From the NCBI RefSeq assembly GCF_009674605.1, contig NZ_WKJO01000001.1, positions 2,046,001 through 2,110,000 of the forward strand: 64,000 bases of DNA, read 5' to 3'. The translations under genes and the position numbers were made by a program. This DNA is from Haloferax litoreum. Lineage in GTDB: Archaea > Halobacteriota > Halobacteria > Halobacteriales > Haloferacaceae. Of the stretch, positions 58,122 through 60,708 are shown one piece after another; positions within the stretch are counted from its first letter, which is position 1; each line of letters opens with the position of its first letter. Under the pieces are notes generated by a model. That model was not told the origin of the DNA, did no database searches, and saw only the letters and a list, made by a program, of their open reading frames with translations.

Positions 58122-58223
58122 GAGCCATCGGTTTCAAACCGTCTCGACACGACGACTCGACATGGACAATCGGGAGACGGCCCGACCGACACACGCAGTC
58201 GGGGCGAGGACGTGGGTGATGCG

Positions 58224-58454
58224 ATGGTAGGACCGAGTTTGAGTGACGACGAGATGCGACTCGCCAGCTATCGCCTCCAGATTGGGTTCGTCCTGCTCGT
58301 CGGTGTCTCCGCTGGATTCATCGCCCTCGCCGCAGGTGCGGTACTTCCCCAAGTCGGTATCGCTTTCGCCGGCGGAACACTCCTCGGCATCGCACTGCTC
58401 GTCTTTCTGTCGTACTGGGGCCGCGAGTTCGTGGGTGTGAACCGACGGCGGTGA
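58224..58454 (+). CDS. small two-helix membrane protein, function unknown
   Basis: A 76-residue protein with a polar N-terminus (MVGPSLSDDEMRLASYRLQ) and two hydrophobic segments (IGFVLLVGVSAGFIALAAGA and GIAFAGGTLLGIALLVFLSY). A GTG four codons upstream is an alternative start. Function unknown. Confidence 0.6.
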   Translation: MVGPSLSDDEMRLASYRLQIGFVLLVGVSAGFIALAAGAVLPQVGIAFAGGTLLGIALLVFLSYWGREFVGVNRRR

Positions 58455-58748
58455 CGCTGTGAGATTGCTGGACGGTTGTCTACGAAAAAGGTGTCAATAT
58501 TGTAATCTCTATGCAAATAAGTAAACTCGTTTGAACGTGTGCCATTGAATCGCAGGGTATTTATCTATACCCTGTGCACGCAATATCGCCGGTAACCAGG
58601 GCAGGGGCAACGACCTGGTTTCTCACCGGATACGCCGGTCGTGTTGGGATTGGGCTTCTAACACAATACGGCGTACCTACCCAAGGTGCGTGCGCGACCT
58701 GAACGACATCAGAACTCGGGTGCGCAACCTGATGGAGTTGCAGTCTCC
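58455..58748. other. 294-bp non-coding stretch holding the structured RNA candidate
   Basis: The left end (58455-58552) has A/T-rich TATA-like sequences (CAATATTG near 58495, GCAAATAAG near 58513) and no clear gene. From 58553 on, the sequence is nearly all in paired structure, described in the ncRNA entry. Confidence 0.5.
58553..58574 (+). promoter_or_regulatory. inverted repeat over a TATA-like element
   Basis: CAGGGTAT (58553-58560) and ATACCCTG (58567-58574) form a perfect 8-bp inverted repeat with a 6-bp centre TTATCT. The left half and centre include TATTTATC (58558-58565), a TATA-like element. If used as a promoter, a regulator bound here would block it; alternatively the repeat forms an RNA hairpin. 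Confidence 0.45.
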
Positions 58749-58765
58749 TCAGGGCGACACCCGAG
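58576..58765 (+). ncRNA. candidate multi-helix structured RNA with pseudoknot
   Basis: By eye the region pairs as follows. P1: GCACGCA (58576-58582) with TGCGTGC (58687-58693). P2: CCGGT (58589-58593) with ACCGG (58625-58629), inside it ACCAGG (58595-58600) with CCTGGT (58614-58619). P3: TACGCCG (58631-58637) with CGGCGTA (58669-58675), then GTGTT (58641-58645) with AACAC (58660-58664). The P3 loop TTGGG (58650-58654) can pair with CCCAA (58680-58684), a pseudoknot. P4: CTCGGGTG (58715-58722) with CACCCGAG (58758-58765), with CCTGA/TCAGG and GGAG/CTCC inside. P4 overlaps the end of the convergent zincin gene. I do not recognise the family; strand is inferred from the TATA-like element. Confidence 0.5.
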
Positions 58766-59711
58766 CAATCCATCGCTCGGGCGCGTCCAATTCTGCATCT
58801 GTCGGCAAGTTCTCCGGATGGTCCCACACACGCGACGCCGCAGCGACGCCGCGGTGGTCCGCGACGTACTCGAAGAACCGAGCACCGCGTTCGTACTGTC
58901 TGCGTTTGAGTCCGAGTCCGAGTGCGCGGCGGGCGAGTCTGGCGATTGGTCCACCACCCTGTCGCCGTTCGTCGAGTTTTCGCCGCAGGTCTTCGTACTC
59001 GTCGTCGAACGCGCGGTCCATCAGTAGTTCCGCGTAGCCTTCGACTGCCGTCATCGCCGTGTCGAGTTCGGCGAACGCGTCTCGGTCGAGGTCACCTTCG
59101 ACGAGTGCGTCGATGCCACGGTTCATCCGGTTTTCGAGGTGGGTCGAGAGCCACGGGGCCGCACCGAACTCCGCCGCGTGCGACACCTCGTGGAACGCAA
59201 TCCAGCGGCGGAACCGCGGGTAATCGACGTCGAGTGAGTCGGCGACGCGTCGAATGTTCGGGTGGACGAAGTAGAGGCCGTGGTCGTCGTCGCCCTCTGC
59301 GAGGAGCAGGGGGTCGTACTGTCCGAGGACGTTGTTGCCGAGGAACGAGAGGACGAGTGCGAACGTCCCGGTGTTGACCGCGCGGGTCACACCGGGAAGT
59401 ATCGCCGGCCCGTGTTCCTCGAACGGGGCCATCACCCGACGGAACGTCTCGACGTTCGCGTCTATCCAGTGGTGACGATTCTGCACCTCCACCACGTCGG
59501 GAACGTCGAACGTCACTTCGGCGACGTCCGCGAGGCGGTCGCGTGCGTCTCGAACGTCTGAGGCGTACCCCTCGCGTTCGACAGGCGAGAGGTCGAGCGA
59601 ACCCGGTTCGGTCGCTGCCCGTGCGGCCTCGCCGACGGCGTCCCAGTCGATATTGCCGGTCCCCGTCGCCGAAGCGTCTGCGACGACCCGGACGCTCCGC
59701 AGGAAGTTCAT
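58749..59711 (-). CDS. zinc metalloprotease-like protein, DUF2342
   Basis: A 320-residue zincin-type protein of the DUF2342 family, often labelled a coenzyme F420 biosynthesis-associated protein. The zinc-binding HEVSH is at FHEVSHAAEF (His174, Glu175, His178), with a likely third ligand in the AVEGYAELLMD helix. The protein is mostly helical and acidic, with no signal peptide. No protease activity has been shown for the family to my knowledge. Confidence 0.85.
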   Translation of the reverse strand: MNFLRSVRVVADASATGTGNIDWDAVGEAARAATEPGSLDLSPVEREGYASDVRDARDRLADVAEVTFDVPDVVEVQNRHHWIDANVETFRRVMAPFEEHGPAILPGVTRAVNTGTFALVLSFLGNNVLGQYDPLLLAEGDDDHGLYFVHPNIRRVADSLDVDYPRFRRWIAFHEVSHAAEFGAAPWLSTHLENRMNRGIDALVEGDLDRDAFAELDTAMTAVEGYAELLMDRAFDDEYEDLRRKLDERRQGGGPIARLARRALGLGLKRRQYERGARFFEYVADHRGVAAASRVWDHPENLPTDAELDAPERWIARVSP

Positions 59712-59889: not shown

Positions 59890-60708
59890 ATGGACCGAAC
59901 CATCGACCACGTCGCGTTCGGTGGTATGGAGTTGTACGAACTCCGGACCGCCGCCAACGAAGTCGGTCTCACGCCGACGTACGGCGGTGAACACAACACC
60001 GGAACGACGCACATGGCAGTCGTCCCCTTTCCCGACGGGTCGTACCTCGAACTCATCGCGCCGACGCTCGGAACCGATGCCGAAGATTCAGGATTCTGGC
60101 CGACCCACCTCGCGGCCGACGCCGGCCCAACAGCGTGGTGTCTCGAAGTCCCAGACGTAGCAGCGAGTGCCAAAGCGGCTATCGACGCTGGCGTCCCCGT
60201 TGATGGCCCGCACGAGGCCGCACGAGCACGTCCCGACGGCCGCCTCGTCGAGTGGGACATGTGCTTCGAGGGCGACGACTTGCGCCTCCCGTTTACCATC
60301 CACGACCGGACCCCGCGCGACTATCGCGTCCCGCGCACGTCGCACAATACGGCGGTGCGCGGCCTGCGGACCGTGGTCGTCGCGACCCGTGACCGCGAGG
60401 CGACTGCCTCTCTGTTCGCTCGGCGACACCGCTACTCGTCGCCTGTCGATATCAACGGTCCGTTCACCAACTTCGCAGTCCTTCCGGGCACGCCGCTGGC
60501 ACTCTGTGAACCCGGTGACGGGGAACTCGACGCCCGCATCGACGAGGTCGGAGAAGGGCCGTGTGCGTTCCTCGTCGGGGTCACGGACCTCGACAGAGCA
60601 CGACAATCGCTCTCGCTCGGTCCGGAGATACGGTTCAGCGACCGCAGGATGGCGTGGTTCGACCACGACCTGTTCGACCGGCGGTTAGGCGTGGTCGAAC
60701 TCCCCTGA
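59890..60708 (+). CDS. VOC (glyoxalase-like) family protein
   Basis: A 272-residue protein with two vicinal-oxygen-chelate modules: residues about 1-130 (TIDHVAFGGMELYELRTAAN, GTTHMAVVPFPDGSYLELIAP) and about 150-265 (GLRTVVVATRDREATASLFARR). The first module resembles the glyoxalase-like domain 3. Metal-binding His and Glu positions are visible in module 1 (His6, Glu54). The substrate is unknown. Its stop lies 34 bp before the convergent rhodanese-MBL gene. Confidence 0.8.
   Translation: MDRTIDHVAFGGMELYELRTAANEVGLTPTYGGEHNTGTTHMAVVPFPDGSYLELIAPTLGTDAEDSGFWPTHLAADAGPTAWCLEVPDVAASAKAAIDAGVPVDGPHEAARARPDGRLVEWDMCFEGDDLRLPFTIHDRTPRDYRVPRTSHNTAVRGLRTVVVATRDREATASLFARRHRYSSPVDINGPFTNFAVLPGTPLALCEPGDGELDARIDEVGEGPCAFLVGVTDLDRARQSLSLGPEIRFSDRRMAWFDHDLFDRRLGVVELP

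Follow-up and report, generated by a model that had tools for sequence, protein, structure and literature searches.

At the junction of two convergent genes in the 64,000-nt stretch of Haloferax litoreum DNA analysed here (the window) lies an interval, positions 58576–58765, that a first-pass annotation had read as a free-standing, multi-helix RNA, and the question raised by this locus is whether an RNA gene is encoded there, how far it extends, how it folds and what it might do. The upstream neighbour (58212–58454, plus strand) encodes an 80-aa small protein of unknown family and is conserved with or without the RNA described below. The convergent neighbour (58749–59711, minus strand) encodes a zincin-like metallopeptidase (Zincin_2, PF10103) and corresponds to HVO_2770 of H. 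volcanii, an orthologue in which transposon insertions led to hypochlorite tolerance (PMC6267482). The next plus-strand gene starts at 59890, 1.1 kb downstream and past the zincin gene, a position that excludes a riboswitch or other cis leader and that agrees with the annotation's view that the interval does not lead any same-strand gene.

With a 251-base query, matches at 76–96% identity were obtained from 12 of the 15 Haloferax genomes, and only its zincin end matched in the other three (genus members named in the comparison were H. profundi, marinum, mucosum, elongans, larsenii, gibbonsii and prahovense). Carriers of the RNA include H. gibbonsii, H. larsenii and H. mucosum. In the resulting alignment, invariant blocks are interspersed with variable ones amid otherwise diverging intergenic DNA. 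Haloferax conservation and structure together place a plus-strand RNA gene at about 58586–58757, some 172 nt long (167–176 nt in relatives). The interval was rightly called a structured RNA, but its limits and some of its helices had to be redrawn.

The tendency to fold was assessed against dinucleotide shuffles. The 190-nt interval gave a folding z-score of −5.4 on the plus strand and −3.6 on the minus strand, and all 12 homologues were more stable than their shuffles (z −2.2 to −4.1). We then scored a hand-drawn structure, comprising hairpins P2, P3, P5 and P6 together with the pseudoknot of the first-pass annotation, on the 12-sequence Haloferax alignment: 94.8% of cells were paired, 18 pairs carried changes on both sides compared with 8.7 in shuffles, and the covariation score exceeded that of all 500 shuffles, while sliding one strand by 1–3 columns lowered pairing to 30–41%. 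Under a phylogeny-aware null that preserves both the tree and the number of substitutions in each column (with one alignment row realigned by hand), none of 1000 replicates reached the observed percentage paired, the number of double-change cells (42 observed, 11.7 expected) or the number of double-change pairs (19 observed, 6.8 expected); the alignment used for this test was also the one from which the structure had been drawn by hand, and the test is biased in its favour to that extent. Single-pair covariation was weak, as two pairs reached E<0.05 when the test was restricted to structure pairs and none in the all-pairs test (n = 12 close relatives). When the 12 sequences were folded singly, independently of any alignment, each reached the same design or nearly so, with mean pair probabilities of 0.83 for P1, 0.97 for P2b, 0.82–0.92 for P3, 0.89–0.92 for P5 and 0.93 for P6. 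Paired columns held 40 G-U cells against 22 A-C cells, an excess that favours the plus strand. These data bear directly on the reading that there is no functional RNA here and that the helices arose by chance in intergenic DNA: high-G+C DNA does fold readily and only 12 related sequences were compared, but the z-scores in 12 of 12 homologues, compensatory changes matched in 0 of 1000 null replicates and the invariant blocks within diverging DNA make this reading hardly credible.

The conserved fold consists of a short closing helix around four hairpins, and we regard it as mostly settled. The closing helix (P1), drawn independently by RNAalifold, pairs UCGCC (58586–58590) with GGCGA (58753–58757), the latter strand, seen also in single folds, doubling as zincin codons; it is nearly invariant across the 12 Haloferax sequences and thus offers no covariation, and it is weak in one homologue (L009, pair probability 0.25). 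P2 (58589–58629), defined by the alignment and single folds, pairs 58594–58600 with 58614–58620 (AACCAGG/CCUGGUU); its lower part, 58589–58593 with 58625–58629, has two bases in common with P1, and its 13-nt loop, GCAGGGGCAACGA (58601–58613), is almost invariant. P3 (58632–58674) pairs 58632–58638 with 58667–58674 and 58641–58649 with 58656–58664 around an invariant UUGGGC loop, includes a 2x2 internal loop and shows changes on both sides at 13 of 17 pairs, above the phylogenetic null. It is followed by a joining strand, UACCCAAGGU (58678–58688), invariant in 12 of 12 sequences. P5 (58687–58726) pairs UGCGUGC (58687–58693) with GUGCGCA (58720–58726) and 58695–58697 with 58716–58718, contains a 1x1 internal loop and has a pair probability of about 0.9 in the 12 single-sequence folds; its apical part (58698–58704 with 58708–58713) is also above the phylogenetic null, and the best single-pair covariation falls in P5 (alignment columns 120–126 and 117–129). 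P6 (58731–58750), GA-U-GGAG-UUGCAGU-CUCC-UC, is invariant but for one position, including its UUGCAGU loop, and is missing from species that lack the RNA. The compensatory signal sits in P3 and apical P5, and P1, P2 and P6 are too conserved for covariation; P3 and P5 are established by covariation, and the case for P1, P2 and P6 comes from conservation and folding energy. As a separate observation, GCAA in the P2 loop (within 58601–58613) and UUGC in the P6 loop (within 58738–58744) are complementary over 4–5 nt and are themselves invariant, the fifth position being C or U, which preserves a G-C or G-U pair; a loop–loop contact is possible.

The stems proposed earlier can all be drawn in the window. 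Conservation extends to P2, to P3 and, within the former P4, to its inner helix (GGAG/CUCC, now P6). The former P1 (58576–58582 with 58687–58693) paired in 58% of cells with zero double-change pairs; most species have a different sequence in its 5' strand, which lies upstream of the expected transcription start, and its 3' strand, which is kept, belongs to P5. That helix is not conserved, and the three-way junction that it was supposed to close is unsupported. The outer 8 bp of the former P4 (58715–58722 with 58758–58765) paired in 78% of cells, no better than in shuffles, and its 3' strand is zincin coding sequence. Conversely, P5 with its apical hairpin and the likely closing helix UCGCC/GGCGA are conserved helices absent from the earlier drawing.

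The predicted pseudoknot deserves separate consideration. The complementarity between TTGGG in the P3 loop (UUGGG, 58650–58654) and CCCAA in the joining strand (58680–58684) is exact, as had been reported, and invariant in 12 of 12 sequences, and covariation therefore cannot test it. RNAalifold draws an alternative small hairpin in the joining strand, UACC-CAA-GGUR, with UACC paired to GGUR. The linker from the end of P3 to CCCAA measures 2–5 nt, which on A-form geometry would probably not span the distance to the apical loop if P3 is a straight, continuous helix of about 19 bp; in that case the cis pairing could form only with P3 sharply bent. An intermolecular contact between the same two sequences would be an alternative to the pseudoknot in cis.

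Conserved reading frames were sought across the RNA in the 12 species and none was found, the sole conserved ATG being that at 58732, within P6. If the locus held a short protein-coding gene and not a non-coding RNA, with the frame opening there (MELQSPQGD...) as a candidate, this would account for the presence of this ATG and the next 8 codons in 12 of 12 species; the frame, however, varies in length (29, 88 or 101 aa) and is antisense to zincin, synonymous positions ahead of the zincin overlap are invariant, as an RNA would demand, and the RNA 5' end has no start codon in any conserved frame. The varying length and the invariant synonymous positions argue against a short ORF at P6, and a protein gene is highly improbable.

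Consistently with a free-standing plus-strand RNA, as first proposed and as supported here, the Haloferax alignment reveals a promoter at 58547–58566 (plus strand), which is gone along with the RNA in three species. A conserved sequence at the BRE position, GAATCGCAG (58547–58555), precedes a TATA-like box, TATTTATCT (58558–58566); most relatives read TATATAT there, and the window reads TATTTA at 58558–58563. The box lies about 26 nt upstream of UCGCC in the closing helix (58586), and archaeal TATA-to-start spacing predicts a transcription start at 58586–58588. The 5' end of the RNA gene would thus follow from the TATA distance, and the closing helix suggests its 3' end. As measured against haloarchaeal promoter element definitions (PMC4983044), the sequence at the BRE position is unlike the CGAAA BRE consensus. 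Several further features surround the box. The stretch upstream of it, 58536–58555 (CGTGTGNCANNGAATCGCAG), is unusually conserved and has no match to the CGAAA BRE. Between the box and the RNA start (58567–58585, alignment columns 49–61), several relatives carry a palindrome, TCCTCTGAGGA, and TGAGGAC-like letters are kept in most; in the window the TATA box itself lies inside an inverted repeat, GGGTAT-TTATCT-ATACCC. These letters are possibly an operator for a regulator. A promoter regulon was also considered: the exact motif with the TATA box, GAATCGCAGNNTATNTA, was found once in the genome, at the RNA gene, and therefore defines no co-regulated set.

This promoter, together with the neighbourhood, is what weighs on the reading of the locus as a cis element. 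Such an element could belong to the small gene upstream, as its 3'-UTR or a tail processed from it, or could be a convergent antisense or terminator element that affects how the zincin mRNA ends. Its location between two convergent genes would suit such a role, as would an RNA end within the zincin stop region, the final 9 nt of the RNA gene overlapping the end of the zincin gene together with its stop codon. Against it stand the RNA's own conserved promoter directly before the fold, a fold far larger than needed, and the persistence of both neighbours, 13–100 nt apart, in the three species that lack the RNA and in other genera. We therefore consider a cis element unlikely.

The distribution of the RNA was established by covariance-model searches of 170 family and 391 class genomes and by a two-motif pattern run on the same 391. 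Twelve of the 15 Haloferax genomes carry one copy of the RNA gene, always at this locus; the covariance model found no RNA in 155 family genomes or in 376 class genomes outside Haloferax, a lone class match at E 0.02 per genome being the chance expectation over 391 genomes, and the two-motif pattern returned the same 12 Haloferax only. As the model was built from one genus, distant relatives could be missed by it. Comparison among homologues, which had been suggested for Haloferax and Halogeometricum, thus yielded compensatory changes within Haloferax and no homologue in Halogeometricum (27 other family genera were searched). The plasmid, phage and viral-contig collections searched contained no copy of the RNA, and this, with its single copy per genome, led us to reject a mobile element.

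In RNA-bearing Haloferax, the gap between the convergent neighbours measures 271–336 nt. The same pair stands tail-to-tail in several other genera, 23–100 nt apart, and the genes are 13–17 nt apart in H. massiliensis, H. denitrificans and H. sulfurifontis, which lack promoter and RNA; the tail-to-tail pair is older than the RNA gene. In a zincin tree, the three RNA-less species form one clade nested among RNA-bearing species, corresponding to one change (support 100/99). The simplest history is thus one gain between two convergent genes in the Haloferax ancestor and one loss, and the loss in one clade means that the RNA is not essential. Promoter and RNA are deleted cleanly in these genomes (L013, L014 and L015), and this natural deletion is usable as an experimental control.

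We next consider which kind of RNA this is. Covariance models of Rfam 15 gave no match at the gathering threshold or even at E≤10, consistent with the earlier statement that the RNA is not tRNA, 5S, 7S or RNase P RNA. ARAGORN, run over the window, found only a tRNA-Leu, distant from the RNA gene, and the genome's RNase P RNA (RF00373) sits at a separate locus. Box C/D guides are RNAs of about 60 nt with C (RUGAUGA) and D (CUGA) boxes; inspection found no paired C/D boxes here, and a CUGAUGG present in the sequence is not conserved in homologues L009–L012. Box H/ACA guides have two stems around a guide pocket, a K-turn and an ANA 3' of the stem (PMC2584109), and inspection found neither a guide pocket nor a GA/GA K-turn, the internal loops being those of P3 and P5. 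There is no evidence for a catalytic or riboswitch role. The main texts searched for a transcript do not name HVO_2769/HVO_2770, and in them neither HVO_2769 nor the locus is described as an sRNA. The RNA gene is real, genus-specific and structured, and apparently unlisted and in no catalogued RNA family.

The reading that we favour, with moderate confidence, is that of an independently transcribed, Haloferax-specific non-coding RNA of about 172 nt acting in trans as a post-transcriptional regulator through its invariant loops. TBP and TFB would bring RNA polymerase to the conserved TATA-like box, and transcription, judging from the distance, would begin where the closing helix opens, on its first base or close by. 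The transcript would fold into a closed four-hairpin structure whose stems may serve as a frame displaying the near-invariant loops of P2 (GCAGGGGCAAYGA), P3 (UUGGGC) and P6 (UUGCAGU) and the strand CUACCCAAGGU; these would contact a trans partner, for which an mRNA or an RNA-binding protein (Lsm, for instance) is the likeliest candidate, and the RNA would thereby exert post-transcriptional control comparable to that of Haloferax sRNA132. A genome search found no perfect complement of the full P2 loop in any sense mRNA. The genome contains just two copies of the P2-loop complement, RTTGCCCCTGC, one of them within the RNA gene and the other antisense to a gene; as a route to a trans target this gave nothing convincing, and because the only other perfect site is antisense to a gene, no target was assigned.

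The main rival to trans-acting regulation is a structural RNP or housekeeping-type role, in which the closed fold would bind a protein or ligand, or act as a scaffold or ribozyme, rather than pair with mRNA. The closed terminal helix, the four hairpins, loops more conserved than the stems and the placement of conserved sequence in loops within a covarying frame would all fit it, but the RNA, unlike known housekeeping RNAs, occurs in a single genus, one clade of which has lost it, and has no resemblance to any Rfam family; we regard this role as a real, if minor, possibility. Its boldest form, a new class of structured RNA particle or a catalytic or ligand-binding RNA that arose in the Haloferax ancestor, with a closed four-hairpin shape and the invariant loops as binding or active site in place of an ordinary antisense-type sRNA, is a minor possibility of similar weight.

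The locus would be a clear case of a new structured RNA gene born between two convergent genes. To our knowledge, conservation is poor and no fold has been validated for most archaeal sRNAs reported so far. The RNA gene described here has a promoter, its structure is backed by covariation, its gain can be dated and one clade offers a natural deletion, all in a genus that is well suited to genetics; it comes with a ready covariance model for a family missing from Rfam and a concrete gene to delete and probe.

Among known systems, archaeal RNase P RNA is likewise a closed multi-helix RNA, which the present one does not match in Rfam, and archaeal box H/ACA guides have a similar total length and hairpins, whereas the RNA here has no guide pocket or K-turn and occurs in one genus. 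Compared by description, the ribosome-associated Haloferax s194 (PMC6104027) is likewise an intergenic non-coding RNA, of 97 nt as against about 172 nt. Methanosarcina sRNA154 (PMC5867862), again compared by description, is also an intergenic sRNA conserved at the genus level; it folds stably, and contacts have been proposed to occur through its loops. It belongs to another clade, however, and has two loops and known nitrogen targets. Haloferax trans-encoded sRNAs are intergenic genes with their own promoter, as is the RNA gene here (GAATCGCAG plus TATA box). One of them, sRNA132, which is restricted to Haloferax, syntenic and preceded by a BRE and TATA promoter, regulates phosphate transporters in trans under phosphate starvation (PMC6560208). 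It differs in its locus, next to HVO_1405 rather than at HVO_2769/HVO_2770, and in its architecture, two stems with a 13-nt pyrimidine-rich linker as opposed to a closed four-hairpin fold that has no such linker. In being genus-restricted, intergenic and non-coding, with a conserved neighbourhood and its own BRE/TATA promoter, it is the nearest precedent for the RNA gene described here.
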